A DNA stretch of 64,000 nucleotides from the NCBI GenBank assembly GCA_021821045.1, contig JAKACW010000011.1:1-64000 (forward strand), written 5' to 3'. The DNA is from Pseudomonadota bacterium. Lineage in GTDB: Bacteria > Pseudomonadota > Gammaproteobacteria > JAADHS01. Each line of letters starts with the position of its first letter. The first letter of the stretch is position 1. The notes under the pieces are model-generated. The model worked only from the letters and a program-made list of their open reading frames with translations, did not search any database and was not told where the DNA came from. Of this stretch, positions 3,907-39,615 are shown in pieces. Position numbers and translations under genes: made by a program.

Positions 3907-5700
3907 TCAGATCGATGACCAAATGGATTCAAAACTCTTTGATTCAGCGGCCGTCGTTTCGTGTTCGCATACAAAGCGGAACTGCTTAAAGGTGGCGGTC
4001 AACTGGGACATGCCCTCAAGTTTGGCGGTTCGTTCTCCGGCTGCTGACTTCAACACGACGGCATCGCCGCTGCGGAACATTGTCGACGTGACCAAAGTGG
4101 CCGGTCGTTGCAGCGCGTCCACAGCCGGCAGTATAAGGCCGCGTGTGTAGGTGGTGCTACGTTGTTCGCTTGCGTCGACGAGTCTCACAGCCACGGACTC
4201 GGCGCCCGCGGCGAGAATTTCAACGCCCATTACCATCATGTCGCCGATGTTCTTCATCCAACGCACGACGCAGATGTTGTAGGCCTCACGATCGTCGTCG
4301 GACCCGCGCATGTACAGCAGTTCGCCGACTTTGAGATTGCCGGAGAGTTTCTGCTTCCACAGCAGGCAATAGCCGCCTGCGCTCTCGTTCGTGACATTGA
4401 AGGTCTGGATGTCAACGCTAGAGGGTGTCACGCGATTCAATTCCTGGCGTTTTTGAACGCGGCTGAACGAGCCATCTTTCTCATGGCGCAGTTCGGTCTG
4501 CGATGCGGCAGTGAAATCCCAGATCTCGGGATAGGCGCCGCTGCCGTCCGCGCCGACGATGGCTTGCGAAGTAAACGTCGACGATAAGTCCACGGAAAGC
4601 GGTTCGGCGCGGGAGCCGCGGCCGCGCTTGGCCCCGAGTCCGCGCAAGGCGTCGTGAATCGCGCTCAGTCCGATGATGACGCTGGTTTGGGCGCGGGTGC
4701 CGCGGCGTCTGAATGTGCGCTTGGACAGCGATCCCCAAGATAGCAGCATGCGCTTGACGGTGTCTTTGGACAGACGGCGGGCGCTGTCGCCGGTGGCTAT
4801 GGTGATGTGCTCGGCGCCGCCATGGCGTACGAGTTGTCTCACGTAAGTCGCCAGTTCAGTCGTATCCAAAACTAGGCAGTCACCGTGTTGGCCGGTGTAG
4901 TGGGCGTAGTAGGCGGGTGGACCGTCCATGGCCAAATTGACGGCGAAAAGGCCAGCCGACTCGTGATTGCCGTCGGATTGGGTCAACACGGCATAACCCG
5001 ACCAAAAACTCAGACATGCGCGTATGGCATCGACGTCATCTTGTGACAGTTGATATGGATTAACGAGCGCCAACAGCAGCTGTTGTTTGTAAAGATCATC
5101 GAGGTTGTCCGGTTGCAGAAACATATGCTGCAGATCGGACAGCGACGTGCGGTGTATGTTCGCGGCGCGTGCGAAGCCATAGAGTTTGTGGATGTCGAGC
5201 CATGTTCCTGTGGAATGGGGCGAGTAGGTTTGGTAGCAGTTGAATGCCAGCAGACTCAAATATTCTACGGCGCGGTACAAGGACCGCGCCATCAGGCGGT
5301 TGTCGGGGGAATGGGAGCGGCTGGAAAGCAGTGTTTCGACGATGATCTTATAGCCGCTCGCGTACTCGGCCGAAAGCTCGCGAACCAGTGCGGCGACTTT
5401 CGCGCTCTTTTGCGACAGCGGGAACGGGCTGCCAAGAAAGTGCTTGCGCAGGGATTTGACCACGTAATCCAACGGTTCAAATAGAAGCTCTAATACGGCG
5501 AAACGCTGGTCCGGCGGCAGATCCGTTCGGTTGATCTCATTCAATGCGCTATAGACCAGTCGGCTGGTCTCCCCGACATGGGCGCGGGGAAGCGCAGCAA
5601 TCCATGCTTCAACCTTTTTCGGTTGGGCATCGAAACTCTGTCCTTTGGTGAACGTCTGGGAGGGTATGGTTAACCCTAGGGGTGCCCACGTGTGCGCCAC
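3907..5700 (-). CDS. Large PilZ-domain protein, probable cyclic-di-GMP effector
   Basis: About 597 residues. The C-terminal third carries both halves of the PilZ signature: an RxxxR (RVQKR) and an (D/N)xSxxG box (NESAGG), which in this family contact cyclic di-GMP. The first 380 or so residues are largely helical-looking (e.g. YRAVEYLSLLAFNCYQTYSPH) and are not a domain I can name; similar two-part proteins occur in other gammaproteobacteria. No signal peptide or membrane segment is seen, so it is probably cytoplasmic. The start is the GTG at 5700, preceded by a strong purine-rich site (GAGGAAGGA); a second GTG at 5727 has no such site. It may respond to the GGDEF-EAL protein at 15.4 kb (inference). 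Confidence 0.75.
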   Translation of the reverse strand: MAHTWAPLGLTIPSQTFTKGQSFDAQPKKVEAWIAALPRAHVGETSRLVYSALNEINRTDLPPDQRFAVLELLFEPLDYVVKSLRKHFLGSPFPLSQKSAKVAALVRELSAEYASGYKIIVETLLSSRSHSPDNRLMARSLYRAVEYLSLLAFNCYQTYSPHSTGTWLDIHKLYGFARAANIHRTSLSDLQHMFLQPDNLDDLYKQQLLLALVNPYQLSQDDVDAIRACLSFWSGYAVLTQSDGNHESAGLFAVNLAMDGPPAYYAHYTGQHGDCLVLDTTELATYVRQLVRHGGAEHITIATGDSARRLSKDTVKRMLLSWGSLSKRTFRRRGTRAQTSVIIGLSAIHDALRGLGAKRGRGSRAEPLSVDLSSTFTSQAIVGADGSGAYPEIWDFTAASQTELRHEKDGSFSRVQKRQELNRVTPSSVDIQTFNVTNESAGGYCLLWKQKLSGNLKVGELLYMRGSDDDREAYNICVVRWMKNIGDMMVMGVEILAAGAESVAVRLVDASEQRSTTYTRGLILPAVDALQRPATLVTSTMFRSGDAVVLKSAAGERTAKLEGMSQLTATFKQFRFVCEHETTAAESKSFESIWSSI

Positions 5701-6350
5701 GTTCCTTCCTCGTCTTTTTGTTGTCACGACGCAGGACGAAAAATTTCTCGCCGGCGTTACCGTTAGTAATCGACTCCTTTCTATATAAGTTTAGTATCAT
5801 AATCAATCGACTAGTGTCCTTGATGGCAACTGGTGTCGAGCGCGAGAGCGGGCCTTCTCGGCGCGACCATCCTTGATCAGACATAGCGTGTGAGCAGCGC
5901 GCCCGGCGCCGGATTCCAAGCGCAGTTCGATCGCCATCGGAACTAAAATTGGCCATTTAAAGACCAAGGTGAAGGAGTCGGTGAGGCACGACGTCGGTGC
6001 CATTCGCGAGGCCTTATCTCGGTTTACTACTACTAACTATAAGAAAAATATGTAGTCGCGGGGCCGAAAAACCGTCAGGTATAATACGAGAACCGCTAAA
6101 CCCCCATGGTTTATGTGCTCAAGGCGGTCAGGAGACGACCGATAACCAACCCGAAGCGCCTGATTTGTCGGCAAATTAGCGCTCTGCGATTTTAAGGTTG
6201 TGTCCAAGAACGAAGAGAGCGCGAGCATGAGAGGGTTGGTGGCGCGATGGGTACCCTGATTGAGTCACGGCGTGTCCCGCTCGCGGGCGCAGTTATTGTT
6301 GCCGCTTGCGTGGCGAATCGAGCACAGAAGCACGGCCGGTGGAGCGCAGC
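5701..6350. other. Divergent intergenic region between the PilZ gene and the receiver-adaptor fusion gene
   Basis: About 650 bp with no convincing coding sequence on either strand; short open frames here lack start sites and family features. It must contain promoters for both flanking genes, which point away from each other. A perfect TATAAT at 6080-6085 on the plus strand is a possible -10 box, but no good -35 hexamer lies at the right distance. If used, it would give a leader of about 260 nt before the fusion gene. No known RNA family was recognised. Confidence 0.4.
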
Positions 6351-9300
6351 ATGAACTTTGACTCGTTATCAGACGTTAGCGATGGCGAGGAGAAGGGCGG
6401 CGCCGAATCACCCCGTTTGTGCCTGATCGAGGACGTCGTACATTCTTCGGGCAGCGATCGTGCGAGTTTGGAACGCCTGGGTTTTCGTGTCGATGCGTTC
6501 AGTGTAACGGACGACGCGCTTAACGCGATTTTGCGCGGGAACTATGATCTCGCCCTAGTGAACTTTGCCTCGCCAGCGCGGGGCATGGGTGGTCCAGAGC
6601 TCATTGGGTTGATTCGCGGTTGCGGTCACCCCGTGGTGAGCAGACTGCCTGTCGTGGCGGTGATCGGCGCGCGGCAAATAGCCCACGCGGCTAAAATTAT
6701 GGCGCTGGGCGTTGACGAGGTTGTCGCCGACCCGATCGATTTGGTGGATTTGAGTCAACGGGTGCGACGATTGGCCAGCCGCGGTGTCCAGCCGGCCGGC
6801 AAGGTCGTCGGCGCCGAGAGCAAATTTAGTGAAGGTCCAAGCGATACACATGCGCGGGAAGAATACGCGCTTGGAAATGAGCACAGTAGAGTCGGTCCCG
6901 CACGGCAATATGACAATGTGGTAATTGCCATGAAGCAAAAACAAAATTTGGCCCAAGGTTCGGGTGACGATTCGCTGTCAGGTGAAAAGCGGGGGTTATT
7001 GGAGCGCTGGGGCGACAAGATTCTGCAACGGCTGGCGAAAACGGCTGATGATACTCCGGCAGAGAACGTGACGTTTGCGGCGCCGCCGCCGGCGGCAACT
7101 GATCGCGAAAAAGCGATCTCGGATGCCCTGCGAAACCTCGGTCAACCGGCTTCACCCGCCGCAAAGACGTCTGCGCCGGTGCCGCCCGCAGTTCCCGCCA
7201 ATTCAATGTCCGCGGCGACACCTGCCGCGCGTGTTGCGCCCACCGCCCGGCCTAATCCGCGGCAGCCAGCGGCGGGCAATGGGCCAAAGCAAGGTTACGT
7301 GTCACCGGTAAAATGGCGCACGATGCCGCCGACGCTGGCCGGCGCTAAGCCCGCGCCGGCGCGCACGCCCGAATTGACCGGCGCCGGTGTGGCGACTCGC
7401 ACACCACAGAAGGCTGCGGCGGCCGCAGTCAGATCGCCGAGCGGAAGCGACGACGTCCGGCTCTCGCCGGCCGAAAAGAACAAAGTCTACGAGCGCGTGC
7501 GCAACCTGATTTCCACGGCGCGGGAAACCGCCGCGGACAAGACGCCGCGTAAGCGAGTGACTAAGACGTTAAAAGTGTGTTTTCTCGAAGACAGCTGCAC
7601 CTCCAGTCACGCCATTCGCGAAATGCTCGGCGAGTCCGGTCACGAAGTCGATCATTTTTCCCTGGCCGAAGAAGCACTGGATGCTCTGAAGGAAAAGGAA
7701 TACGACTTGTTGCTGGCGAGCGAAGTCGAAGCCGTCGGCGGAATGGATTGTCACGCGCTTATTAAAGCTGTCCGCAACGCGGCACAGGCCATTAAGCGAA
7801 ATTTGCCGATCATCGTGCTGACGGCCAAAGGCGACCGCGCAAACGTGCAGTCCTTCATCGCCGCAGGTGCAAATGAGGTGATCGTCAAGCCGGTGGACGG
7901 CAAGAAGCTTAACGACCAGATTCTCACCGTCGTCACCGTTCAGCGCATGCCGGTGCGCGGAGTGAAGAAATCGCTTTCAATCTGTTTCCTGGAAGACAGC
8001 TGCACGTCGAGTCACGCGATTCGCGAAATGCTGGGTGAAGCAGGGCACGAAGTGGACCATTTCTCCTCCGCCGAGGAAGCGCTCGATGCGGTTCTGGAAA
8101 AGGGCTATGACGTGCTGCTGGCCAGTCAGATCGTGGCCCTGGGCGGCATGGATTGCGAGGGTTTGGTGCGCACTTTGCGCAATTCATCCAATCCAGCGGC
8201 CCGCACCCTGCCCATCGTGGTGATAACCGCCAATTCCGATCCGAGCAATCTCGAAGCGTTCTACATGGCCGGCGCGAGCGACGTGGTGGTCAAGCCCATC
8301 GAGGGCAAGGAACTCAACGGGCGCATCCGCGAAGTCGTGCAAACGGTTCCGGCCCATGACTTGACTCCGCGGCCCCGACGCAATTTCCGCATCTGCTTTT
8401 TGGAAGACAGTTGCACGTCCAGCCACGCGATTCGCGAAATGCTCGGCAATGAAGGTCATGAGGTGGATCACTTCAATTCCGCCGAGGAAGCGCTCGATGC
8501 GATCATGGAAAAGGATTACGACTTGTTGCTGTCCAGTCAGATCGTGGCCCTGGGCGGCATGGATTGCGAGGGTTTGGTGAAAACCATTCGCGGCTCGAAA
8601 CAGCCGGCGAAGCGGCAACTTCCCATCGTGGTCATCACTGCAAACGCCGAGTCAGCCAACCTGGACACGTTTTTCAAGGCCGGTGCGAATGATGTCGTCG
8701 TCAAGCCGATCGAAGGCAAAGCTTTAAACGAGCGTATCCAACAGACAATCACGGCCAAAACCGAAGCGTTGCCGTTTACAGCGCCCACGCCGGCGCCGAA
8801 GAATCTCAAGGTCTGTTTCCTAGAGGACAGCTGCACGTCCAGCCATGCCATCCGTGAAATGTTGGGCGAGGCCGGGCATGAGGTCGATCATTTCTCGACC
8901 ATCGAGGAAGCGCTGGATGCGTTCCTCGAGAAGGACTATGACATTTTGCTTGCCAGCCAGATCCCGACTTTGGGCGGGATGGATACCGAGGGACTGATCA
9001 AGGAGATCCGCATCTCGAAGAAACCGGGCAAAGCGAAAAAGCCGATTGCGGTACTGACGACGGATACGTCCGCAGAAAATTTGAATGCATTCCGCGCGGC
9101 CGGGGCGAATGACGTAATGACCAAACCCGTCAAAGGCGATCTTGGCGAGCGACTGCGCGCCACCATCGAGAATCGCGGCAAAGCGGTCACTCGTCCCGCG
9201 CGGACGTCCGCCGCGCCGGCGGTCCCGCCGCCTGTGGTGGTGCCGAAGAACCTCAAAGTGTGCTTTCTTGAGGACAGCTGCACGTCCAGCCACGCCATCC

Positions 9301-10970
9301 GGGAAATGTTGGGCGAATCCGGGCATGAGGTGGATCACTTTTCCTCGCCTGAGGAAGCGCTCGATGCACTGATGGAAAAGAAATATGACGTGTTACTGGC
9401 CAGTCAAATCGTCGCCCTCGGCGGCTTGGACTGCGAGAGCCTGATCACCACCGTTCGTTCGGCCGGCCAACCGGACAAGCGGGCGATTCCCATTGTGGCC
9501 ATCACGGCCAACGGCGATCCGGCCAATCTGCAGGGCTTTCGCAATGCGGGCGCTGATGACGTGGTCGTGAAACCCGTCGAAGGCAATTTGGGTGACCGAC
9601 TCAAGACGGTCATTAGGACGCGTCCTCCGGGCGGCACTCGACCGAACTTGCGCGTCGTACCCCCGGCGACCGCAAAGCCGGCGAGTTTGCCCAAGCCCGG
9701 TGCGGCGGCTTCCGCGACAGTGGCCAAGCCTGCTGTGGGACTTCAGGATTCGATTGGGAAGTTGGGTCACCCCGGCAAAATCGCGCCGCAACCGACGCCT
9801 GCTGCCAAAAAGCCCAGCTTGGCGGATTTGCTCGAAGGCAAGCAGCAGCCGGCCGCATTGCCGGCGTCTCGACCGGCGGAGACTCGCGCGTCGGGGTCTG
9901 ATCGCAAGATCATTTATGCTTTGGTTGCCGCGGGCGTTTTTGCAGTGGTCGCTTCGACATGGCATCACTTTGGCGAGCACGTTCCGGTCGACGTTGTGAC
10001 GGTTGAGTCGGGTCCGATTTTCGAGGCCATCAGCGCGCCGGGTCGGGTCGAAAGCAAGCGCAAAGTCAACTTGACGACTGCGTTTCCCGGTCAGATCACC
10101 AAGGTCACCGCAAAGGAGGGCGACACAGTCACCCGTGGCGACGTACTCGCGACCTTGGATGACCGCACCGCGATCATCGGACTGCAACGAGCGGAGGCTC
10201 AGTTGGAGAGCGCCAAGCGCGAAGTCGCTTTGACCGAGCGAACCTTGGACCGTTTGGTGCGCGCCTTGCAGATGGGCGCCGTGTCTCGACAAATGGCGGA
10301 AGATGCCGAAGCGGCGGTACATGCCTCGCGGGCCAAACAACGGGTCGCCCAAGAAGAGGTTAACGCGGCGCGATTGTCGTCCGAGCGCGTAAATGTTACC
10401 GCGCCGTTTGACGGAACGGTAACGGTGTCGTATGCCGTCGAAGGCTTATGGGCCGAGCCGCCCGGTCCGTTGTTTACCATCGTGGACATGGAGCAGCGGG
10501 AAGTCGAGGTACGCGTCGCCGCCGAGGACAGCTCGCGCCTGAGCGTCGGACAATCGGTTACCCTGACGAGCGATGCGTTTCCGGAGCATCAGTGGAACGA
10601 AGAGATCGTTCGTATTGCGCCGGCGGCCAGTCGCGATACCGGTATGGCCAATACCGTGAGCGTCTACATCAGCCTTGGTCCGGACGCGCCACCGCTGCGC
10701 TACGGGCAGCAAGTCGATGCCCAGATCCGTACCGCCTCGAGCAACAATGCGATGCGTGTTCCATACGACGCGGTGACGCAGCGTAACGGGCGCACGATGG
10801 TTGCCGTGATCGAGGAAGGCCGTGTTCACTTCATACCGGTTCGAACCGGCATCGAGTCTCCGACTCATATCGAAGTGCTCGAGGGGCTGAAGCCGGGCCA
10901 ACAAATTGTGCTGCTGCGAAAAGACATCGAAGAGGGCGCTCGGGTCGAACCGGTCGAGATTCCCGGATAG
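6351..10970 (+). CDS. Fusion protein: six receiver-like domains plus MacA/HlyD-type periplasmic adaptor
   Basis: 1,539 residues, starting at ATG 6351 behind GGTGGAG. Residues about 22-145 form a divergent receiver-like domain. A long Ala/Pro-rich linker follows, then five similar receivers starting near residues 407, 542, 679, 819 and 968, each opening with FLEDSCTSSHAIREMLG. After a second Pro/Ala linker comes one membrane segment (about 1187-1204, IIYALVAAGVFAVVAS), then a membrane-fusion-protein body: barrel-sandwich hybrid (GRVESKRKVNLTTAFPGQI, APFDGTVTVSYAVEGLWAEP), a helical hairpin and beta-barrel (VEVRVAAEDSSRLSVGQSV). The topology puts the receivers in the cytoplasm and the adaptor in the periplasm. 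The phospho-acceptor Asp is absent from all six receivers (Ser in five, Asn in the first), while the KP lysine is kept in the five repeats. The ATPase gene starts 6 bp downstream, so this is the adaptor of that transporter. Confidence 0.9.
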   Translation: MNFDSLSDVSDGEEKGGAESPRLCLIEDVVHSSGSDRASLERLGFRVDAFSVTDDALNAILRGNYDLALVNFASPARGMGGPELIGLIRGCGHPVVSRLPVVAVIGARQIAHAAKIMALGVDEVVADPIDLVDLSQRVRRLASRGVQPAGKVVGAESKFSEGPSDTHAREEYALGNEHSRVGPARQYDNVVIAMKQKQNLAQGSGDDSLSGEKRGLLERWGDKILQRLAKTADDTPAENVTFAAPPPAATDREKAISDALRNLGQPASPAAKTSAPVPPAVPANSMSAATPAARVAPTARPNPRQPAAGNGPKQGYVSPVKWRTMPPTLAGAKPAPARTPELTGAGVATRTPQKAAAAAVRSPSGSDDVRLSPAEKNKVYERVRNLISTARETAADKTPRKRVTKTLKVCFLEDSCTSSHAIREMLGESGHEVDHFSLAEEALDALKEKEYDLLLASEVEAVGGMDCHALIKAVRNAAQAIKRNLPIIVLTAKGDRANVQSFIAAGANEVIVKPVDGKKLNDQILTVVTVQRMPVRGVKKSLSICFLEDSCTSSHAIREMLGEAGHEVDHFSSAEEALDAVLEKGYDVLLASQIVALGGMDCEGLVRTLRNSSNPAARTLPIVVITANSDPSNLEAFYMAGASDVVVKPIEGKELNGRIREVVQTVPAHDLTPRPRRNFRICFLEDSCTSSHAIREMLGNEGHEVDHFNSAEEALDAIMEKDYDLLLSSQIVALGGMDCEGLVKTIRGSKQPAKRQLPIVVITANAESANLDTFFKAGANDVVVKPIEGKALNERIQQTITAKTEALPFTAPTPAPKNLKVCFLEDSCTSSHAIREMLGEAGHEVDHFSTIEEALDAFLEKDYDILLASQIPTLGGMDTEGLIKEIRISKKPGKAKKPIAVLTTDTSAENLNAFRAAGANDVMTKPVKGDLGERLRATIENRGKAVTRPARTSAAPAVPPPVVVPKNLKVCFLEDSCTSSHAIREMLGESGHEVDHFSSPEEALDALMEKKYDVLLASQIVALGGLDCESLITTVRSAGQPDKRAIPIVAITANGDPANLQGFRNAGADDVVVKPVEGNLGDRLKTVIRTRPPGGTRPNLRVVPPATAKPASLPKPGAAASATVAKPAVGLQDSIGKLGHPGKIAPQPTPAAKKPSLADLLEGKQQPAALPASRPAETRASGSDRKIIYALVAAGVFAVVASTWHHFGEHVPVDVVTVESGPIFEAISAPGRVESKRKVNLTTAFPGQITKVTAKEGDTVTRGDVLATLDDRTAIIGLQRAEAQLESAKREVALTERTLDRLVRALQMGAVSRQMAEDAEAAVHASRAKQRVAQEEVNAARLSSERVNVTAPFDGTVTVSYAVEGLWAEPPGPLFTIVDMEQREVEVRVAAEDSSRLSVGQSVTLTSDAFPEHQWNEEIVRIAPAASRDTGMANTVSVYISLGPDAPPLRYGQQVDAQIRTASSNNAMRVPYDAVTQRNGRTMVAVIEEGRVHFIPVRTGIESPTHIEVLEGLKPGQQIVLLRKDIEEGARVEPVEIPG
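7569..9620 (+). repeat. Five tandem intragenic receiver-domain repeats
   Basis: Five direct, diverged copies of a receiver-domain coding unit begin at 7569, 7974, 8385, 8805 and 9252, that is 405 to 447 bp apart. The first 30 or so residues of each copy are nearly invariant, while linkers and C-terminal thirds vary. Codon-level divergence between copies shows that the array is not a simple assembly duplication. Internal recombination between copies could change their number. Confidence 0.9.
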
Positions 10971-10976
10971 GAGCCA

Positions 10977-11657
10977 ATGATCTCCTTACAGGGTGTTAGT
11001 AAGGCGTACAAATTAGGTGACACGATCGTTCCGGTTTTGCGCGGCGTCTCGCTGGAGATTGCGCCGGGACAATTTATAGCCATCACCGGACCCTCCGGGT
11101 CGGGTAAATCCACTCTGATGAATATTCTCGGACTGCTCGAATCCTATGATTCGGGCAGTTACCGTTTTTGGGGCCACGACGTCTCCACCATGACGGACGA
11201 TCAACTGGCCGGGCTGCGTAATCAGCGCATCGGTTTTGTGTTCCAGTTGTTCAACTTGATTCCTCGTCTGAACGCCTTGCGCAATGTGGAGATTCCTCTG
11301 ATGTACGCGGGAGTTGGTACAGCGGAGCGGCGCCACCGTGCGCAGATCGCGCTGCAACTGGTGGGATTGGGCGAGCGTATGGATCACACCGCTTCGCAGT
11401 TGTCCGGAGGACAGCAGCAGCGCGTCGCCATCGCGCGCGCCTTGGTCACTGATCCGGAAATCATCATCGCCGACGAGCCAACCGGGAGTTTGGATTCTCA
11501 GACCTCCCATGACATCATGGCGTTGCTGCAGACCCTCAACCAAAGCGGCAAGACCGTTATATTGGTAACCCACGAAGACGAGATCGCGGCCTACGCCAGC
11601 CGCATTATTTATCTGCGCGATGGTGAAATCCGATTGGATCACCAGTCCACTACATAA
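10977..11657 (+). CDS. ABC transporter ATP-binding protein, MacB/LolD-like
   Basis: 226 residues; the nucleotide-binding subunit of a split MacB-type exporter. Walker A is GPSGSGKS, the signature is LSGGQQQR, Walker B is [12 protein letters not shown] and the switch His is in VTHED. The ATG at 10977 follows GGAG by a few bases and lies 6 bp after the adaptor stop codon, so translation is probably coupled. Lengths and motifs fit the family that energises FtsX-type permeases used for macrolides, peptides, lipoproteins or siderophores. The substrate cannot be told from sequence. In E. coli MacB this domain is fused to the permease; here it is separate. Confidence 0.93.
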
Positions 11658-11667
11658 GGCCGCAACG

Positions 11668-12924
11668 GTGTACCGTCCCACCTTCACACGTTTTTGGCTC
11701 GACTCGCTTGAACAGGCGATGTTCGCACTGCGCGAGAATCGGCTCAGAACGCTCTTGAGCATTCTCGGCGTGATGATCGGCGTTTTGGCGGTGATCGTCG
11801 TGGGGACGGTGGGCAAGACGGGTCGCGACATGGTATTCGCGGAGTTCCAGACATTCGGTCTCAACGCGATGTGGATTTATCGCTTTTGGGGTGAGCAGCA
11901 CCCCTTCGCCAGCGTTCCGGCGGGGAGCGGGATAACGACCGAGGACGTGATGGCGATACGAGCCGGGGCCTGTTGTCCGGCCGTCTCCAGGGTCAGCCCG
12001 TGGGTGTACACCAACCCTTGGGAAGTGCTCATCCGCGTGGGCAATCGCTATAGTCGAATTAAAGTCGATGGCGTCGACGTGGACTACTTCAACATCGTGA
12101 ACGAAGAAGTCAAATATGGTCGCCTTTTTCGCGAGGACGATATTCGCGACCGCAAGCCGGTGGTGCTTATCGGCACCAAGGTCCAAGAGAGATTCTTTTC
12201 GATGAACTCAAATCCGGTGGGCGAGTCCATCCGGATGGGCGACATCCGTCTGACGATCATCGGCGTGCTCAAAAACAAAGATCGACAATTTCTTTCCTCC
12301 ATCGGCGCCGTCGCCTACGACGTCAATGATCGAATCGTCATCCCCTATTCGCTCTATCAGCAAGTCCTCGCTTCCAAAGATGTCCACACATTGGTGGCAG
12401 AAGCCAAGGATACCTCGCTGGTCCAGTCGGCGTTGCAGCAGATCAACTCCTTCCTTACCCGAAAGCACGGAGGCAAGTATGCGTATATCTTGGAGGACAT
12501 GCAGACATGGGTGGAAACTGCCAACCGCTACCTCCGCATTATTACGGTGATCGGCGTTGTGGGCGCCGGCGTGTCGTTGTTGGTCGGCGGCTTGGGCATC
12601 ATGAATATCATGGCGACCTCTGTGGTCGAACGTACCCGCGAGATTGGCATTCGCAAAGCCATTGGCGCGCGGCAAAAAGACATTTTGTCGCAGTTTATTC
12701 TCGAGGCCTTATTTATCAGCGCCATCGGCGGCGTTTTGGGTTTGGCGTTGGGTTTGGTGGTCGGCCTCATTGCCAGTTCGACGCTGGGGATCAGCCTCAT
12801 GCCGCCTTTTTCGTTGCTCATCATCGCCGTGGGCGTGGCCAGCCTCACCGGCATCGTGTCGGGATACTACCCGGCCAAACGGGCGGCCGCAATGCGTCCG
12901 GTGGACGCGCTGCGCTACGAGTAG
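11668..12924 (+). CDS. ABC transporter permease, MacB/FtsX family
   Basis: 418 residues from the GTG at 11668 (MYRPTFTRFWLDSLEQAM), 10 bp after the ATPase stop; an ATG at 11620 would overlap the ATPase gene and is less likely. There is one N-terminal membrane segment (LLSILGVMIGVLAVIVVGTVG), then a large periplasmic MacB core domain, then three C-terminal segments in the FtsX arrangement. The coupling region VERTREIGIRKAIGARQKDI and the terminal PVDALRYE are characteristic. With the adaptor and ATPase it completes a tripartite inner-membrane assembly; no outer-membrane TolC partner is encoded nearby. Confidence 0.92.
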   Translation: MYRPTFTRFWLDSLEQAMFALRENRLRTLLSILGVMIGVLAVIVVGTVGKTGRDMVFAEFQTFGLNAMWIYRFWGEQHPFASVPAGSGITTEDVMAIRAGACCPAVSRVSPWVYTNPWEVLIRVGNRYSRIKVDGVDVDYFNIVNEEVKYGRLFREDDIRDRKPVVLIGTKVQERFFSMNSNPVGESIRMGDIRLTIIGVLKNKDRQFLSSIGAVAYDVNDRIVIPYSLYQQVLASKDVHTLVAEAKDTSLVQSALQQINSFLTRKHGGKYAYILEDMQTWVETANRYLRIITVIGVVGAGVSLLVGGLGIMNIMATSVVERTREIGIRKAIGARQKDILSQFILEALFISAIGGVLGLALGLVVGLIASSTLGISLMPPFSLLIIAVGVASLTGIVSGYYPAKRAAAMRPVDALRYE

Positions 12925-12940: not shown

Positions 12941-14272
12941 TTACCACACACCGGGAATCAGCCGATACCTGACTTTGTCCATGTACGCCCGGTATTCGGG
13001 AAAACGCTTGAGATGTCTTTCCTCGCTCAGTGCCCGCAGGATGTAAATGACGTTCCACATGAGGTGTCCGAAAACGATCTCCCAGCTCCAGAAGTTTACG
13101 TACAGCAGTGACTGCGACCACCATAACACCATCTTGCAGGTGGTGGCGGGATGGCGCACGATCCCGTAGGGACCGCGATCTTGCAGCTTCTTGAAGGTGA
13201 TGTTGGCCCCGGACGGCCCGAGTGACAGATCGCTATACACCAACGCGGCCAGAATTCCGACCTCGACGAACTTCAAGATCAGCAGCAGGGTTTGGTCGAC
13301 GAAGATCAAATCCGCTGCGTTGTTGGTGGCAACGAGGGGAGCGAACGGAAACAGCGTGCCCGTGACTTGATTAAACGGCGCGTAGCAGCACAAACAGATC
13401 AACCAACCGCCGGCCGTGAGATCAATCGAGCGCGAGCGGTTCTCGACCCAGCGCGATTCAATGCAATAGGCCGACGCAGCGGACAGTGCATCGGCGAACC
13501 ACAGTATTCCCGAAATCCACAACAGCATTGTCATGATGTTGTAATGGGAAAAGTCGTCGGCGGACAGCGATATGCTGCCTTTCAATCCACTGTAGATCTG
13601 AACGACCATCACGGGAATAAAGTAGGCGCGCATAAAAAGGTTGAGCACGACTTTGCGATTGTAGGTGTTGCGCCAGGCGATTCGGGCTCGTTTCCGATCG
13701 CGGCGCGAGAAGGTGGCAAGAAGGGTGTATTTGCAGAGCGCCAAGAGCCGAATGGCGTTGTCGTAAAAGTCCTCGGTGCGCGAAGCCTTGAACTTGAGCG
13801 TGGCGATAAAATACAACACGCCGTAAGTCACGTACAGGTCGAACCATTCGCGTAGAAACAGCAGATTCGTGAGTTGTTTCGAGTAATAGTCGTGGGTTTC
13901 GTAAAACGTTAGCGCTAGAAAAAAAACGCCCAGCCACACGAAGTAACGCACGATTGCGCGGCGCAGGAGCTGAAGCAAGGACTGGCCGCGTTCGATCGAA
14001 AAGTAATCATCCCGTCGTTGTCGCCACAGATTGCCCAGCGCCCAGACCAGGGGCGCGACGAAAATGGGAATGTAAAAAAGCTGGTCGTGATAACCGTAAG
14101 TCTTGAATCCCCAAAACGCGCCGAGCGCGGTGAGCAGCGTGGCTGCGACATAAAAATGGGGCGAGAGGTGAAATTTCTGCATGCCGGATCGAATCAATTG
14201 TCGAATCTTATTGTTATCGACAGTAGGAGTAAAGGTTTTACCGCAGGCATTGTTGCATGCACTTCGATGCAT
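12941..14272 (-). CDS. Polytopic membrane protein with isoprenylcysteine/phospholipid methyltransferase-like C-terminus
   Basis: Up to 443 residues; a Met at 14182 (QKFHLSPHFYVAATLL) is an equally good start and gives 413. Many hydrophobic segments are visible (e.g. FYVAATLLTALGAFWGF, LWISGILWFADALSAASAY). The C-terminus reads DRGPYGIVRHPATTCKMVLWW and later SEERHLKRFPEYRAYMDKV. This matches the SAM-binding RHP...EE pattern of the ICMT/PEMT membrane methyltransferase fold. The 250 residues before it have no family I can name. It converges on the MacB-like permease gene with 16 bp between them. The substrate is unknown; a lipid or prenyl methylation role is inference. Confidence 0.65.
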   Translation of the reverse strand: MHRSACNNACGKTFTPTVDNNKIRQLIRSGMQKFHLSPHFYVAATLLTALGAFWGFKTYGYHDQLFYIPIFVAPLVWALGNLWRQRRDDYFSIERGQSLLQLLRRAIVRYFVWLGVFFLALTFYETHDYYSKQLTNLLFLREWFDLYVTYGVLYFIATLKFKASRTEDFYDNAIRLLALCKYTLLATFSRRDRKRARIAWRNTYNRKVVLNLFMRAYFIPVMVVQIYSGLKGSISLSADDFSHYNIMTMLLWISGILWFADALSAASAYCIESRWVENRSRSIDLTAGGWLICLCCYAPFNQVTGTLFPFAPLVATNNAADLIFVDQTLLLILKFVEVGILAALVYSDLSLGPSGANITFKKLQDRGPYGIVRHPATTCKMVLWWSQSLLYVNFWSWEIVFGHLMWNVIYILRALSEERHLKRFPEYRAYMDKVRYRLIPGVW

Positions 14273-14417: not shown

Positions 14418-15305
14418 ATGCAGACGGACTGGGGTTTAAAGCGAGAGCGGGCCACCCATTTGGTGAAAGGCGTAGCCACGCTGGTGTCGTTGCCGGAGGT
14501 GTGCACGCGGGTCAACGATATGGTCGACGACGCGCGCTCCTCGGCCGCCGACATCGGCAACGTGATTTGTCAGGATCCCGGCCTCACGGCGCGCCTGCTG
14601 AAGATTGCCAACAGTTCGTTCTACCGATTTCCATCGAAGATCGAAACCGTGTCGCGCGCAGTCACCATCATCGGAACGCGGGAGCTGCGCTTTTTGGTGC
14701 TGGCCTCTTGCGCAATTCGTTCATTCGACCGCCTGGATAACGATCTGATCGACATGGCGAGCTTTTGGCGCCACAGTTTATATACTGCGGTCATTGCCCG
14801 GGAACTGGCCGGTCGCTGCAACGTTTTGCATCGGGAACGCCTGTTCGTCGCCGGGTTATTGCACGACATCGGTCATCTGGTGATGTACAACAAGATCCCC
14901 GACTTGGTGCAGGTCATGCTGGACCGAGCCAATCGCAGCGGCGAGCCGCTGTATCAGGCGGAGCGCGACGTGTTCGACATCGATCACGGCGTCGTGGGCG
15001 CAGAGCTGCTGAAGCTGTGGAATTTGCCTCAATCGCTTCAGGAGGCCGTGGAGCACCATCATGAGCCCCAGAAGGCCGAGTCTTATGCCCTTGAGGCGGC
15101 GATTGTGCACATTGCCAATTCCCTCGCCCGATTGGCCGAGCGGGGCTGCACGAATGCGCAGGATGGACCCCCGATTGCTCCCGAGGCATGGGAAATAACC
15201 CGACTCAACGGCGATATTATCGAGCCCACCCTCATCGAGGCACGTGCCCAGTTCATCGAAGCACTGCTGCTGTTTCTTCCCGGCGTTCTCGCAGGCTCCA
15301 AATAA
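14418..15305 (+). CDS. HDOD-domain signalling protein
   Basis: 295 residues, a single HDOD domain spanning most of the chain. Typical HDOD features are VATLVSLPEVCTRVNDMV near the N-terminus, QDPGLTARLLKIANSSFY, and VSRAVTIIGTRELRFLVLA. An HD-like motif remains at GLLHDIGHLVMY, and HHHEP follows later. HDOD proteins act as output or scaffold modules in bacterial signalling, and most are thought non-catalytic. It lies immediately before the GGDEF-EAL gene on the same strand with a 141-bp gap, so the two may be linked functionally. Cytoplasmic; no transmembrane segment seen. Confidence 0.88.
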   Translation: MQTDWGLKRERATHLVKGVATLVSLPEVCTRVNDMVDDARSSAADIGNVICQDPGLTARLLKIANSSFYRFPSKIETVSRAVTIIGTRELRFLVLASCAIRSFDRLDNDLIDMASFWRHSLYTAVIARELAGRCNVLHRERLFVAGLLHDIGHLVMYNKIPDLVQVMLDRANRSGEPLYQAERDVFDIDHGVVGAELLKLWNLPQSLQEAVEHHHEPQKAESYALEAAIVHIANSLARLAERGCTNAQDGPPIAPEAWEITRLNGDIIEPTLIEARAQFIEALLLFLPGVLAGSK

Positions 15306-32277: not shown

Positions 32278-32302
32278 GACCCGCCTAGCGCGGGTCTTTT
32301 TT
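32278..32302 (+). terminator. Rho-independent terminator
   Basis: A seven-base-pair GC-rich stem (GACCCGC with GCGGGTC) and a 5-base loop, followed by six T. It ends the plus-strand gene and overlaps the last codon of the opposing tail-tip gene. Confidence 0.9.
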
Positions 32303-34823
32303 ACCCCGTGTACAGCCTGATCGGCAACGACCGCAACACAGGCGGTGCCGTTCCTGATTTCGTTCCGGTCACTTTCACTTTGAGATACCGCAGCGTGACG
32401 GCCGAGCCGGGTATCGCGCCGAATCCGGCGTATGAGCCCGCTGCCGTTTTGTAATCAACCGTGATCGCCGCTGTTGCCGAATTGATACCGGCCGCGACAC
32501 CGATAACGACAAGCGTATCTGCGCCGATGTCGATCTCGGTGTGCTCATAGGTAATCGTCGCCGCTGGCGACATATTCCACTGCGTCCACCCGTCCCACGT
32601 AGAGCGGTCGTTCCACGTCGCCGAGTCGGTCGCCTCGAGTGATGCGCCGGTTGACAGGAAGCAATTTGTTTTTGTTCCAGGCCACCCATCGAGATGCGGA
32701 TCTGTGCCGTACACGAGCGACCCGAGTCGCGGGTTCCCCAGCTCGTAGTCTGTCAACAGCCGCGCATTAACGCTTTCGTTGCCGCTCGTGTCGACCGCCT
32801 TGCACGCGAAATTGTACGAGCCGGCCAGTAGCTGATTGGTCTCCCACGGTGACGAGGTCAGCACGTCGGTATGTAGCGCCGTCATGTCGTCCCATGCGGT
32901 TTCTGTGGCGTGGTAGCGGATCACGTACCCCCACAAGTCAACCGGGGGGTTATCGATACCGAACCGAAACTCGCGCGTACCATCGCCCTGCACGGCCAGT
33001 GAAAACGTCGTCACATCGGGCGGCGGCGCAGTCTTTCCGACAATCGTATGGTTGAGCGCCGATACCCATTCGGACGAGCGCCCGAAGGTGTTGATTGCGC
33101 GAATTCGAAAATCATAAGCAACGCCGTCCGCGACGCCGGACAAATACACTTCCTCGGTGAGTCGGCCATGTACGAAAAACGCGGGCAGGTAGTTCGCATC
33201 GATGCTTCGCTTCATCTCGACGATGTAGCCCGTGACATAGATCGAGGTCGACGCCGTCCATGTCACGCGCACGCGCGTGAATATCTCGCCGGTTGCGATG
33301 GACTGTACGAGGTGCGTATCGCCAGAATTGATCTGTAACCCCGTCGGCGCATCGACCGTGAACGGACTGGGTAGCGTGGTATCCGGTTGGTTTCGCGCCT
33401 CGTCGCGCGCCGTCGCCGTGTAGGCGTTCGGCTCATGCTCGACCAGTCCAACGTCGACCAGCCCGGTCATCAGCAGCGACACGCTGTTGACGCGAAACAG
33501 CTTGCCCTCCCAGCCGGGCGTAGCATGCGTGACGTCGACTACATCTCCGGGCACGACCGTGAGCGCGGCGGGCGAGGCAAGGAACGAGCACCCCAGTTGT
33601 TGCCGCGATTTGTTCAGCGTAAGCTCGGCCTCGTTTAGCGCACGATAAACGTTCGTGGTCGCCGGCAACTTGAGCTCCAGTTCCAAAACCTCGCCGTTAT
33701 CGGCGGCGCGATAGGTCGCCGACTCAACAACCGCAACGTCCTGCTCCCAGTTTTTATCTGGGTTCGTAAACAGCGCCTTGACTCGGTTAAACCGCGCGCT
33801 CTTGCCGCCGTGCGAAATCAACAGTCCGCCGATGATGTTGTCACGGTCGAACGAGAACGTACTCGCAACGTCGCGGTCAATGCCAATCGTCCACCCGCCG
33901 CCCGCCTTGTAGACGCGGGCACGGCACGACGTTCCCAGGATTGCGATATTGTTCTTGACGGGCTGCGACGTATCGATCACCGCACCGCACGCGTGGCGAC
34001 GAATGCTGACGCCTACAGCCGGGGCAATCACTGTGTCACAATAATCCGCGGCCGCAGCGAACGCCGCCGCGTCGATCCCGCTGGTAGAGATGCCTTTCCC
34101 GTATCGCGTGTTCGTCAGCAAATCGTAGAGGCACAGCACGGGGTTTGCCGCATCGTCATATGACTGCGCGGTGTCGCCGATCCGAAAGTCCGTAACCATG
34201 CGTCCATAGACCAGCGCGTTGATGCGTGGAACGGACGCGATGCCATCCGTGTCGTATTTGATCCTGACGTGAACGTAGGCCGTGCCCGGCCCGGCGTGAT
34301 CGGCGGCTGTCCACTCCGCAAACGCCGCCGCCAGTGTCGCGCTCACCTCCTGATCCGTCGTCCCGGAAAACGTCTCAATGTAAACCGCGTCCGTATCGTA
34401 CTCGGCGCGGTAGTCGTCCTCCGTCGCGATCAGTGAATATTCCGTGTCATCCAACCACACGGTATAGATCGGCCATACCGGCCCCTCGCACAGCGCGACG
34501 ACGAGGTGTAGGTATTGGTTATCGCCCGACAATCCGCCGAAAACGACGGGGCCGCCGACGCGGCGCGTGCCGTAGACGAGCGGCAGGAATAGAGCGTTGC
34601 CGGTTTTGTTGATCCGAACGTCATAACTTGGTTCGCCGGCGTTAGGCGTCGGGAATTCCGGGCGCGCGAACAAATCCTTGAACGGCTCCCATATCTCATT
34701 GTCGATTTTCCGACCGACGCGGCGAACCTCGTCCTCGATGTCGCGCCCGACTTCGCGGATGTCGTCGCGCCGCTCTTGGACCCAATCAACGGCGTCGTCG
34801 AGGTGGTCCTTGATCCAACCCAT
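32301..34823 (-). CDS. Lambda gpJ-like phage tail-tip / host-specificity protein
   Basis: 840 residues, the largest gene in the element. The N-terminal third resembles gpJ-type central tail-tip proteins (GNALFLPLVYGTRRVGGPVVF, NALVYGRMVTDFRIGDTAQ, DLLTNTRYGKGISTSGIDAAAF). A middle region resembles fibronectin-type beta-sandwiches (VRVTWTASTSIYVTGYIVEMK, GVAYDFRIRAINTFGRSSEW). The C-terminal part is likely the receptor-binding region, of unknown class. GpJ fixes host range in lambda-like phages. The start codon shares one A with the terminase stop codon. No other tail gene accompanies it, which is unusual. Confidence 0.82.
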   Translation of the reverse strand: MGWIKDHLDDAVDWVQERRDDIREVGRDIEDEVRRVGRKIDNEIWEPFKDLFARPEFPTPNAGEPSYDVRINKTGNALFLPLVYGTRRVGGPVVFGGLSGDNQYLHLVVALCEGPVWPIYTVWLDDTEYSLIATEDDYRAEYDTDAVYIETFSGTTDQEVSATLAAAFAEWTAADHAGPGTAYVHVRIKYDTDGIASVPRINALVYGRMVTDFRIGDTAQSYDDAANPVLCLYDLLTNTRYGKGISTSGIDAAAFAAAADYCDTVIAPAVGVSIRRHACGAVIDTSQPVKNNIAILGTSCRARVYKAGGGWTIGIDRDVASTFSFDRDNIIGGLLISHGGKSARFNRVKALFTNPDKNWEQDVAVVESATYRAADNGEVLELELKLPATTNVYRALNEAELTLNKSRQQLGCSFLASPAALTVVPGDVVDVTHATPGWEGKLFRVNSVSLLMTGLVDVGLVEHEPNAYTATARDEARNQPDTTLPSPFTVDAPTGLQINSGDTHLVQSIATGEIFTRVRVTWTASTSIYVTGYIVEMKRSIDANYLPAFFVHGRLTEEVYLSGVADGVAYDFRIRAINTFGRSSEWVSALNHTIVGKTAPPPDVTTFSLAVQGDGTREFRFGIDNPPVDLWGYVIRYHATETAWDDMTALHTDVLTSSPWETNQLLAGSYNFACKAVDTSGNESVNARLLTDYELGNPRLGSLVYGTDPHLDGWPGTKTNCFLSTGASLEATDSATWNDRSTWDGWTQWNMSPAATITYEHTEIDIGADTLVVIGVAAGINSATAAITVDYKTAAGSYAGFGAIPGSAVTLRYLKVKVTGTKSGTAPPVLRSLPIRLYTG

Positions 34824-35317
34824 TAAGGAACCTCCTTCTCGGCGGGTCCGGTTCGCTCGGCAAGTTCAGGCAAACCATTGGTCGATAATTCCGACAAAGC
34901 TTCGTGAACCAGTCGTTCCGCCTCGATCTTGGTTTCATGTAGGCCCTGCGCAGATATGGCGACTTGCGCTAACTTCGTCGGCAACGCAATGAATCGCGAG
35001 CGCATCGCCGACAGCAGGCGTTGCCAGTATTCGGTCACGATGTCCGCATCAACCAGCCGGCCGCGGAGTTTGGAAACTTCCAGCTCCGTTTTATTGGCCT
35101 GCGCCGCCGCCAGTCGCGCGCGTTCGGCGGTCAGATCGAGGGGTCCCGCTTCCGCGTCAGAACCGCCGATCAAGATCGCCGGCAGCGCGTCTCGCGATTC
35201 GTACAACGTGGAATTCTTCGGCCCCGGGCGAGTGGGGAGCAGTTCACAGCGACGGCGCGCGGTGCGCGTGCTGGTCCCGGTCAGTTCTGCAAGCCGCGAA
35301 ACGGATTCCCAAGTCAC
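34823..35317 (-). CDS. Nu1-like terminase small subunit (DNA packaging)
   Basis: 164 residues. The N-terminus has a winged-helix look (SVSRLAELTGTSTRTARRR). A central ERARLAAAQANKTELEVSKLRG and VTEYWQRLLSAMRSRFIALPTKLAQ match the Nu1-type small terminase family, which recognises cos DNA and recruits the large subunit. No large terminase is present, so it would have to act with one from a helper phage. It overlaps the tail-tip gene by one base. A GC palindrome lies about 130 bp upstream. Confidence 0.78.
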   Translation of the reverse strand: MTWESVSRLAELTGTSTRTARRRCELLPTRPGPKNSTLYESRDALPAILIGGSDAEAGPLDLTAERARLAAAQANKTELEVSKLRGRLVDADIVTEYWQRLLSAMRSRFIALPTKLAQVAISAQGLHETKIEAERLVHEALSELSTNGLPELAERTGPAEKEVP

Positions 35318-35446
35318 TTAATTCCCCTTGTTGGTGTGATGCCTCTGTGGAGCGCTGTCTCTAGGAAAAGATCGCGGCGTACACCACCCGCCGTTTGTTA
35401 TTCCGTAGAAGGACCCGGGTTTATGTGCGGTCGTCCGAGTCACGCA

Positions 35447-35460
35447 ACCCCCTGGGGGGT
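35447..35460. other. GC-rich palindrome, candidate cos-type site
   Basis: ACCCCC and GGGGGT arms flank a TG centre, 130 bp upstream of the small-terminase start in a 150-bp gap between otherwise tightly packed genes. In lambda, cosN also lies just upstream of Nu1. The assignment is positional only. Confidence 0.3.
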
Positions 35461-35468
35461 ACCGCCCG

Positions 35469-35660
35469 CTACCCGAACGTGACATTGTGTTTCACGGATC
35501 GAACGAACCGCTCGAACGAGTGGCCATGCTCGGCCCGCAACTCAGGATGCCGCAACCAGGCGCGCTCAAGGTTGTTCATGATGCGTCGCTGGCGGCCGTC
35601 GTCGACGGATCGATACGCGGGCTGGGCCGTTGTGCGGAACCCGTCGGAATCGTCACTCAC
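35469..35660 (-). CDS. Small unknown protein of the element
   Basis: 63 residues starting at a GTG that overlaps the upstream stop codon (GTGA), the same overlap style as its neighbours. The core NNLERAWLRHPELRAEHGHSFERFVRSV has a plausible helical composition. No family recognised. Confidence 0.55.
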   Translation of the reverse strand: MSDDSDGFRTTAQPAYRSVDDGRQRRIMNNLERAWLRHPELRAEHGHSFERFVRSVKHNVTFG

Positions 35661-36169
35661 AACGCCACACCCGCCGCCTTGGCCTCAGCCGTCAGCGTCG
35701 CCAACTTGCCTTCGATGTCGGCGATCTTCGAATCAAGCGCCGCCAGTTGCTTCGTGCGCTCGGTCGTGGTCAACCCGCCTTGCGGGTAAGCATCGCTGGC
35801 GGCGAACCGCGCCAGACCGTCTTTGATTGCCGCGCCGAAGAAATACAGCGCCGCCTCGCGGTTAACGGCCGTGCCGTTGATGAAGCCGACGCGGTCAGTG
35901 TTCAGCATCGCCGGGTGATGGCCAGCGGCCGCGCGGCCATGCTCATGCGTGAAGTGCCTCAACACGTTCGCCAGTCCGCCCTCGAATTCCGTTGATGCCT
36001 GGTCAATGTACTGACCCATCGACTCCAAAAACTCAGCGGGCGCAACCGGAGCCGCGGCCACCACGTCGCGCTCTTGGCGAAGCGCTTCGAGCTGCTTTTG
36101 AAGTTTGGAGTGCTCGCTGGTGAGGCTGTTCAACGACTTTTTGATCAGCGAAAAATCGAACACGGTCAT
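35657..36169 (-). CDS. Unknown protein with coiled-coil ends
   Basis: 170 residues. The N-terminus (LIKKSLNSLTSEHSKLQKQL, EALRQERD) and the C-terminus (QLAALDSKIADIEGKLATLT) are coiled-coil-like. The middle (HGRAAAGHHPAMLNTDRVG) is not recognised. It overlaps both neighbours by 4 bases within the long minus-strand operon. It could be structural or a scaffold-like satellite protein, but no family supports that. Confidence 0.7.
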   Translation of the reverse strand: MTVFDFSLIKKSLNSLTSEHSKLQKQLEALRQERDVVAAAPVAPAEFLESMGQYIDQASTEFEGGLANVLRHFTHEHGRAAAGHHPAMLNTDRVGFINGTAVNREAALYFFGAAIKDGLARFAASDAYPQGGLTTTERTKQLAALDSKIADIEGKLATLTAEAKAAGVAL

Positions 36170-36453
36170 TTGCTCCCGTCGATGCGGCGGGCAAGCTTAA
36201 CCGCATTCCGCGCCTCGGCTCGGGCGAACGCGGAGTACAGCGCGAAGTCATCCAGAAACTCTTCACGCAAACCGGCGTCGCGGTCCCATTGTTGTTTGAT
36301 GCTGGCCTCGAAGGCGCCGCGGTCCGCGCCGTCATTGGTTGCGTCGGGATGGCGCGCGGCCTGCGCGCTCGGCGTGGCCGATGATTCCCCGAATTTGGCC
36401 TTGGTCCGTGCGACGGTCGCTTCGCGCATTTTGGAAAAAATGTTTTCGGTCAT
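36166..36453 (-). CDS. Small unknown protein of the element
   Basis: 95 residues from ATG 36453 (TENIFSKMREATVARTK), preceded by GGAACC; an earlier ATG at 36525 gives an implausible N-terminus. It is charged and helical (EEFLDDFALYSAFARAEARN). The stop overlaps the next start by ATGA. No family recognised. Confidence 0.62.
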   Translation of the reverse strand: MTENIFSKMREATVARTKAKFGESSATPSAQAARHPDATNDGADRGAFEASIKQQWDRDAGLREEFLDDFALYSAFARAEARNAVKLARRIDGSK

Positions 36454-36598
36454 GGGATCGGTTCCTTTTAAAAACCTCGGAGCCAGGCAGAGGATCCAGC
36501 CCCGAGGCGATGAGCACGCAAGCATGGACTGTTGCGCTTACAAAGAGCCGTCGGTGTACGGCTCGTCAGCAGGTCACCGCCCACTGACAGTTTCAAAG

Positions 36599-37054
36599 TT
36601 ACGCCGATTCGGTCGGTTCGTCACTGCGGTCGAATGCTGGGTTTTCTTTCAGCAGGTCGTGAAGCTGCCGGACGCTGGCGGGAATACCGACGCAGCACTT
36701 TTGCGCGCGCCAAAGATGCCGGTACAGTCCGGACGTTGGCGGCGTGGTCGGGTCCCAAATTGTGTCGATGAATATCTGGTAATGCGCGGCCAGCCGCTCG
36801 GCCCGTTGCCAGGGGTTAGGCGCGTCGATCAACGCCGCTGCCCGCATCAAATGCGCGTCGCGCTGCGCACGTCGTAGAGCGCGTCTTGCCGACGTTCCGC
36901 GAGAAGTCAGACCCAACGCCACCTCCAGGCGGCCGCCGTCGGAAACGTAGCCCGACAAGCCAGCCAACAACCACACCCGAACGTCGGCCGGCAGTTGGTC
37001 GCCGGATTCGAGCGCCGCCAAGCATTCGGCCAGCAGTGTGACGGGGTCGCTCAC
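36599..37054 (-). CDS. Unknown protein of the element
   Basis: 151 residues; its start overlaps the upstream stop by 4 bases. The N-terminal half (LLAECLAALESGDQLPADVR) and RGTSARRALRRAQRDAHLM are helical with a run of Arg. AAHYQIFIDTIW and KCCVGIPASVRQLHDLL follow. Similar small proteins occur in replication regions of phage and islands, but I cannot name the family. Confidence 0.62.
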   Translation of the reverse strand: MSDPVTLLAECLAALESGDQLPADVRVWLLAGLSGYVSDGGRLEVALGLTSRGTSARRALRRAQRDAHLMRAAALIDAPNPWQRAERLAAHYQIFIDTIWDPTTPPTSGLYRHLWRAQKCCVGIPASVRQLHDLLKENPAFDRSDEPTESA

Positions 37055-37266
37055 GCTTTTCGCTCAGACCCGCCAGCAGCCAGTTGGATCAGCATTTCGG
37101 CCGTTCGCGAATCGGCGCACGCCCTTTTGAATGATGCCGGGCAGGTGTCGCGCAGCTGGGCCAACAGCCGGCCGGCCACCTTGCGATGCTCAAGCGCCAA
37201 CCGGTCAAGTTCGGCGGCCGTGCTCAGGGTTTCGGCGATGGCGGTCACAATCTGCGCGCTATTCAT
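37051..37266 (-). CDS. Small unknown protein of the element
   Basis: 71 residues. The sequence (IVTAIAETLSTAAELDRLALE, HRKVAGRLLAQLRD) is helical. It is joined by 4-base overlaps to genes on both sides, which is the best evidence that it is real. No family recognised. Confidence 0.6.
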   Translation of the reverse strand: MNSAQIVTAIAETLSTAAELDRLALEHRKVAGRLLAQLRDTCPASFKRACADSRTAEMLIQLAAGGSERKA

Positions 37267-37529
37267 GGTTGGCTCCGCTGTTCGTTGCGGTAATCGTCGA
37301 TCAGCACCAGCTCGATGCCGTGTTCATCGATGGCGGCTTGGGCAAATCGCGCAAGCTCGGTCGTTTTCGTCTCGAACTCCACAGCCTCCGAGTAATTCAG
37401 ACCGGCCGTTGGCGGCGGTGACCATTCGGAAAAAACGCGTTTTCGGCCTTGGCGGTCGCGGGCGGCAATCGCCTTGACGACGTAGGGGCCAATCTGCCAC
37501 GTGGCGGTTATTGGGGTGGGATTTTTCAT
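37263..37529 (-). CDS. Small unknown protein of the element
   Basis: 88 residues with a beta-rich start (ITATWQIGPYVVKAIAARD) and a helical end (ELARFAQAAIDEHGIELVLID). It is linked to the AAA ATPase gene by a 4-base overlap. No family recognised. Confidence 0.6.
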   Translation of the reverse strand: MKNPTPITATWQIGPYVVKAIAARDRQGRKRVFSEWSPPPTAGLNYSEAVEFETKTTELARFAQAAIDEHGIELVLIDDYRNEQRSQP

Positions 37530-39538: not shown

Positions 39539-39550
39539 ATTCGGCCTCGT

Positions 39551-39615
39551 TAATGTTTGTCAACATTACGAAGCCTATGGGTCGGCGCGTGTTTGAAATA
39601 GGTTCTAAAACCTAT
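39551..39615. promoter_or_regulatory. Two operator-like palindromes upstream of the AlpA gene
   Basis: Perfect 7-bp arms with 4-bp spacers: TAATGTT-TGTC-AACATTA (39551-39568) and ATAGGTT-CTAA-AACCTAT (39598-39615). Both share GTT-N4-AAC. On the minus strand the first palindrome contains TTGACA. They are probably binding sites of a repressor that controls the element's main operon; the repressor gene is not obvious. Confidence 0.6.

Follow-up and report, generated by a model that had tools for sequence, protein, structure and literature searches.

A transport adaptor carrying six receiver domains that lack the phosphoacceptor aspartate

A single gene in the 64,000-nucleotide stretch of DNA analysed here (the window) encodes six receiver-like domains, one membrane segment and a full periplasmic adaptor in one polypeptide, and all six receivers lack the phosphoacceptor aspartate. 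Members of the conserved family to which the protein belongs have, as a rule, one receiver with an intact phosphosite. We tentatively favour a reading in which the family comprises receiver-regulated tripartite exporters, and in which the input of the window protein has become a phosphorylation-independent, multivalent docking array.

Architecture of the fusion gene and its operon

The frame at 6351–10970 translates into 1,539 residues with no internal stop, and the remaining five frames across this interval contain 17–53 stops each. The start ATG at 6351 has a GGAG ~7 nt on its 5′ side. Pfam recognised Response_reg in six stretches of the protein (E = 2.5e-73) and HlyD_D23, HlyD_3 and Biotin_lipoyl_2 in the adaptor. 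The fusion gene, its parts and three downstream genes are as follows.

6351–10970, + strand: fusion gene encoding six pseudo-receivers, linkers, a transmembrane segment and a MacA/RND-type adaptor; 1,539 aa (Pfam, NCBIfam)
6411–6788, + strand: pseudo-receiver R1, residues 21–146 (family receiver alignment)
6789–7568, + strand: Pro/Ala-rich linker of ~260 aa (composition P 0.11, A 0.17)
7569–7946, + strand: pseudo-receiver R2, phosphosite Ser, AGC at 7719 (family receiver alignment)
7974–8351, + strand: pseudo-receiver R3, phosphosite Ser, AGT at 8124 (family receiver alignment)
8385–8762, + strand: pseudo-receiver R4, phosphosite Ser, AGT at 8535 (alignment and structure model)
8805–9179, + strand: pseudo-receiver R5, phosphosite Ser, AGC at 8955 (family receiver alignment)
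9252–9626, + strand: pseudo-receiver R6, phosphosite Ser, AGT at 9402 (family receiver alignment)
9627–9905, + strand: second Pro/Ala-rich linker (composition P 0.16, A 0.20)
9906–9968, + strand: single transmembrane segment, residues ~1186–1206 (best hydropathy segment)
9969–10967, + strand: periplasmic adaptor, TIGR01730 RND_mfp (NCBIfam and MacA structure matches)
10977–11657, + strand: MacB/LolD-like ABC ATPase, 226 aa (Pfam, NCBIfam)
11620–12924, + strand: MacB_PCD and FtsX permease, 434 aa (Pfam, NCBIfam)
14418–15305, + strand: HDOD protein (a homologue lies directly upstream of the fusion in three loci of another family, f101)

The order of domains and the two following genes described in the initial annotation were thus recovered by translation, Pfam, NCBIfam and hydropathy, including the 6-bp spacing between the fusion gene and the ABC ATPase gene and the FtsX-type permease gene that comes next. 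Arg/Lys precedes the transmembrane segment, which predicts a cytoplasmic location for the receivers. Because this one strong hydrophobic segment separates the two parts of the protein, the receivers are most likely cytoplasmic and the adaptor periplasmic by predicted topology. Frameshift and chimeric assembly were considered as sources of the fusion and rejected as unlikely: the receiver–linker–membrane segment–adaptor frame recurs in independently assembled genomes, third-position GC stays at 0.57–0.75 from one end of the gene to the other, and no exact repeat inside it is longer than 47 bp. Of the two features that would have undone the annotated fusion, a stop codon between receivers and adaptor is absent and a frameshift there is unlikely; the frame is open and its relatives share the same order. 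A search of genome contigs with the whole protein returned one unrelated Lachnospiraceae receiver match.

The adaptor scored 190.7 bits against TIGR01730 RND_mfp over residues 1213–1522 (cut-off 94.9; NCBIfam). Positions 6–336 of the 354-residue adaptor query aligned with MacA chains 9qgy and 5nik, spanning the hairpin, lipoyl, barrel and membrane-proximal regions, and MacA chain 4dk0 was likewise matched over nearly the whole adaptor. The ATPase and permease genes overlap by 38 bp, and this overlap together with the 6-bp gap suggests that the three genes form one operon. The permease contains MacB_PCD (3.5e-35) and FtsX (6.8e-21) domains (Pfam). The best NCBIfam model for both the ATPase and the permease is MacB PRK10535, with each half scoring well under the full-length cut-off. 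The system therefore resembles MacAB-TolC in having an adaptor with one N-terminal transmembrane segment that can be aligned to MacA structures over its full length, and an ATPase and a MacB_PCD/FtsX permease within the same gene cluster. Unlike MacB, which is a single polypeptide, the ATPase and permease are encoded here by two overlapping genes, and no gene for an outer-membrane factor was seen beside the operon; 18 OEP matches lie elsewhere in the genome. MacA-type adaptors usually have just a short cytoplasmic N-terminus, whereas ~1,185 residues bearing the six pseudo-receivers precede the membrane segment in the window protein, in agreement with the unusually large N-terminus annotated at the outset.

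Several other genes of the window were noted. A 606-aa protein encoded beside the fusion gene on the minus strand (3907–5727) matches nothing in Pfam at E ≤ 0.01 or in NCBIfam at E ≤ 0.001. The minus-strand gene at 12941–14272, which lies between those for the permease and the HDOD protein, encodes a membrane protein of 443 aa whose C-terminal domain is isoprenylcysteine/phospholipid methyltransferase-like. The interval ~32301–41584 consists mostly of minus-strand genes, looks integrase-like by eye at its 3′ end (40223–41584) and is a possible prophage or island.

A family of receiver–adaptor fusions

A search with the adaptor alone across 369 genomes of the same class found close matches in 12 genomes, which contain nine receiver–linker–membrane segment–adaptor fusions beyond the window protein (a paralogue in its own genome counted) and three plain adaptors. 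In all, ~30 relatives were found in the class, and we therefore rejected the idea of a unique architecture. In the order of G300 the adaptor is present in 23 of 24 genomes, as 22 full single-receiver fusions and a 23rd cut by a contig end, and in the order of G317 it is present in four of five genomes. A phylum-wide sample of 399 genomes yielded no further match at E ≤ 1e-35, and the nearest plasmid-borne adaptors share only ~33% identity. In a TIGR01730 survey of 185 class genomes, nearly all frames among the ~150 top matches listed were 350–625 aa long. The single longer frame among those listed (1,297 aa, G157) has no receiver, and its start lies in sequence shared with an outer-membrane-factor gene that is read in a different frame.

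No description of a receiver–adaptor fusion was found in the open-access full-text literature searched. The earlier statement that no family with this architecture has been described holds to that extent, with the correction that the fusion is conserved across a family whose members as a rule carry one functional-looking receiver. Sizable, poorly known cytoplasmic domains on ABC, MFS and type 1 adaptors, which matter for substrate recognition and assembly, are described in a review of tripartite systems that mentions receivers only under transcriptional control (PMC8277102). A review of pseudo-receivers reports neither a tandem array nor a transporter, words that do not appear in its text, and describes the working of the bacterial domains as largely unknown (PMC12632262).

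Among the single-receiver members, 26 of 27 carry the phosphoacceptor Asp, the exception being L027 with Asn. The three multi-receiver members are the window protein with six receivers, its own-genome paralogue (G000:C19, L013:8153–10237) with two and L032 with two, and Asp is found in none of their ten receivers; six receivers occur in the window protein only among the family members found. The window protein thus shares with the single-receiver adaptors (L027–L031, L034, L060–L080) the order of receiver, Pro/Ala-rich linker, membrane segment and adaptor, and ABC genes adjoin many of those as well, whereas it differs from them in having six receivers without a phosphosite in place of one with the site intact. 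It resembles the paralogue and L032 in fusing several Asp-less receivers to a related adaptor, although each of those has two. In these alignments receiver number and phosphosite state go together. The link may reflect a single evolutionary event and no repeated correlation, because only three proteins are involved; a single genome supplies two of these, and all may belong to one clade. The adaptor tree groups the window protein with L034, L013 and L032 at modest support (89/88). In the receiver tree, window R1, L013 and L032 sit on long branches and their placement is unsafe, so we make no claim of one versus several multi-receiver origins. Most members have a single Asp-bearing receiver and three have two to six Asp-less ones, so that this adaptor family amounts to a natural experiment that lets the change from receiver to pseudo-receiver be studied inside one protein.

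Within family f64, receiver identity exceeds adaptor identity in every one of the 210 pairs (medians 75% and 55%), which share ancestry and hence are not independent. A PhoQ-like histidine kinase gene lies 0.4–2.2 kb upstream of the fusion on the same strand in 17 of the 22 f64 loci; in the other five the contig ends within ~2.2 kb upstream. As an OmpR-type regulator gene is seen in 11 of the 17 loci with the kinase, which gives the kinase a partner of its own, its link with the fusion may be plain synteny. No homologue of this kinase was found near the fusion in the first 20 kb of the window; one with 43% identity is encoded elsewhere in the genome (G000:C57:59185–60522). Downstream of the fusion gene, ABC genes are present in the window, at three loci of f101 and at some dozen loci of f64, and they adjoin it in most members with enough flanking sequence, though not all: they are absent beside the fusion in genus g66, at some other loci and next to the own-genome paralogue. 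The HDOD gene of the window, 3.4 kb downstream of the fusion gene, is an association only. Many f64 loci have a divergently oriented gene for a kelch-like repeat protein upstream of the fusion (for example L028:11798–12895), with kelch-like homologues farther upstream in f101.

Two of the multi-receiver relatives have features of their own. The paralogue gene overlaps by 4 bp the gene for an NMT1-like substrate-binding protein (10234–11241), an unusual pairing without ABC genes. In L032 (1165–4281) the two pseudo-receivers and the adaptor are followed by a C-terminal rhodanese domain (PF00581, residues 824–916) and by more sequence. Many of the genomes compared are metagenome bins. Some loci agree across family boundaries: L014 (G002) and L069 are almost the same, and L036 and L081 have one and the same adaptor. 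On sequence identity these cases are ascribed to bin contamination or recent transfer, and no conclusion here draws on the four loci.

Loss of the phosphosite and conservation of the repeats

Receiver residues were called in an alignment of 37 receivers from the fusion family. The phosphoacceptor position is Asn in R1 and Ser in R2–R6, so the canonical response-regulator set (DD, D, T, K) is incomplete in all six window receivers through the loss of the D; recognised by PF00072 and missing this Asp, all six are pseudo-receivers. R2–R6 retain both acidic residues, the Thr and the Lys of the pocket and have no neighbouring Asp beside the phosphosite either (YDLLLASQ and variants). R1 is the most diverged receiver, with the conserved Thr replaced by Ile and the conserved Lys by Asp in addition to the Asn at the phosphosite. 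Ordinary His–Asp phosphotransfer into the six receivers is excluded on these residues, because the phosphoacceptor is Ser in five and Asn in one. The initial annotation had suggested that the array brings "signalling inputs, or binding partners" to the pump; with Asp in none of the six domains, ordinary phospho-signalling inputs fall away and binding partners fit better. The position three before the Lys is aromatic in 86% of receivers (PMC12632262), and it is Val, Ile or Thr in all receivers of the family, the Asp-bearing ones included, so that Tyr–Thr coupling to the α4–β5–α5 face is probably absent across the whole family. The R4 model, made with the other window repeats, adopts the five-fold β–α receiver fold (pLDDT 87). 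The solved structures closest to it are CheY3 and other receivers, and its structural matches include kinase-bound RR468 (PDB 3dge) and the D53A complexes with HK853 (6rh1, 6rh8).

The repeats R2–R6 are unevenly conserved along their length. Identity is 72–85% in the N-half (the first 65 codons) and 38–61% in the C-half (the rest), with pN of 0.09–0.18 and 0.28–0.45 and pS (silent differences per silent site) of 0.47–0.83 and 0.58–0.78, respectively. Where residues agree, the codons agree in the N-half at a rate of 0.54, versus 0.41 expected from local codon usage (sd 0.024), and in the C-half in 41% of cases, versus 40% expected. By this measure the C-halves are saturated, and the N-halves combine clear constraint at the protein level with a degree of similarity that is residual or converted and peaks between R3 and R4. 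Because identical codons are in excess there, gene conversion would explain part of the N-half homogeneity. Mapped on the model, the positions invariant across the five copies occupy the β1–α1 loop (5/5), α1 (10/11, with the invariant stretch SSHAIREMLG), β2 (5/5) and α2 (7/10), with few in α3 (2/9), α4 (3/10) and α5 (2/13). Conservation in the Asp-bearing single-receiver relatives is centred on the active site (β3, its loop, α3 and β4).

A possible docking array and the alternatives

Receivers dock on histidine kinases by helix α1, as in HK853–RR468, and the HK853 complexes with a D53A regulator reportedly show that a receiver without Asp is still able to bind the kinase. The array of the window protein is conserved on the α1 side and has no Asp, and it could bind a kinase or a similar partner without taking phosphate. 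In the mechanism we propose, the gene product would serve as adaptor in a tripartite exporter of MacAB-like type whose ATPase and permease are separate proteins. The widespread form would carry one phosphorylatable cytoplasmic receiver through which a histidine kinase sets pump assembly or activity directly, without transcription; control of the exporter by adaptor phosphorylation is the best reading of this single-receiver form. In the window lineage the phosphosite would have been lost and the receivers multiplied to six, such that R2–R6, five near-equivalent copies, offer one shared partner the same β1–α1–β2–α2 face. The likeliest partner would be a histidine kinase, through its four-helix bundle, or else another receiver-binding protein. 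Binding such a partner without accepting phosphate, the array might capture it, act as a decoy for it or tether it to the pump. MacA is a hexamer, and only if this adaptor is hexameric as well would each pump carry 36 such domains. Certain observations count against docking: gene conversion would account for part of the N-half homogeneity, conservation does not extend to α5, another helix that takes part in docking on kinases, the window fusion gene has no kinase gene beside it, the f64 kinase may be linked by synteny only, and the fusion occurs without neighbouring ABC genes in genus g66 and at some other loci. Taken whole, the proposal of an undescribed exporter class regulated at the adaptor, its receiver phosphorylated by a PhoQ-like kinase and the window array capturing the kinase or a partner independently of phosphate in up to 36 copies per pump, is possible but on the doubtful side. 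Two-component systems control export pumps via transcription; a receiver built into the adaptor would, if this is true, act on a tripartite pump at the protein level, a mode of control conserved throughout an order.

Pseudo-receivers with roles in protein–protein contacts are known, including the one in FrzS, which acts in polar positioning in Myxococcus, and the second domain of PleD (PMC1974792; PMC12632262). The window array is like these in its receiver fold, its lost phosphosite and its proposed role through protein contacts, and it could serve to localise or scaffold the pump, in the way of FrzS, or form a fixed cytoplasmic collar. The weak Pfam matches in the fusion protein to TadZ-like_ARD, AmiR_N and one KaiA_N would agree with such a role. 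We consider it unlikely: FrzS interacts through its α3–β4–α4 face (PMC12632262), which is variable in R2–R6, where α1 is conserved instead, and a two-repeat model (pTM 0.50, from an alignment only four deep) gives no sign that adjacent repeats pack in a fixed way. Known pseudo-receivers stand as one domain per protein or are coupled to enzymes or DNA binding, whereas the window protein carries five to six in tandem on a transport adaptor.

It is rather unlikely that the array is still a switch by other chemistry, whether through modification of the Ser that replaces the Asp, or of a different residue, or through binding of a metal or ligand in the acidic pocket. Five of the six receivers do hold the acidic residues, Thr and Lys together with Ser at the phosphosite, Ser also occupies this site in the paralogue and in one L032 receiver, and Ser/Thr phosphorylation and Lys acetylation are reported for the atypical response regulator GlnR (PMC12632262). 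Against a switch of this kind, the strongest conservation lies on α1–β2–α2 and not around the pocket, and R1 is without the Thr and Lys too. The missing active site, the strong divergence of R1 and the variable C-halves could likewise mark the repeats as decaying leftovers with no role beyond spacing; this is improbable, since all five copies agree at ~35 N-half positions although most of their silent-site similarity is gone, and the frame has stayed open for 1,539 codons. Ordinary phospho-signalling into all six receivers, for which one might cite their recognition by Pfam and the Asp of the single-receiver relatives, is contradicted by the sequence of every domain and has next to no probability.

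Receiver-like domains also occur apart from an adaptor in a genome that encodes a pseudo-receiver adaptor: the stand-alone protein L016:4623–5810 has two diverged receiver-like domains, of which the first lacks Asp at the phosphosite, and ends in a Pro-rich tail.
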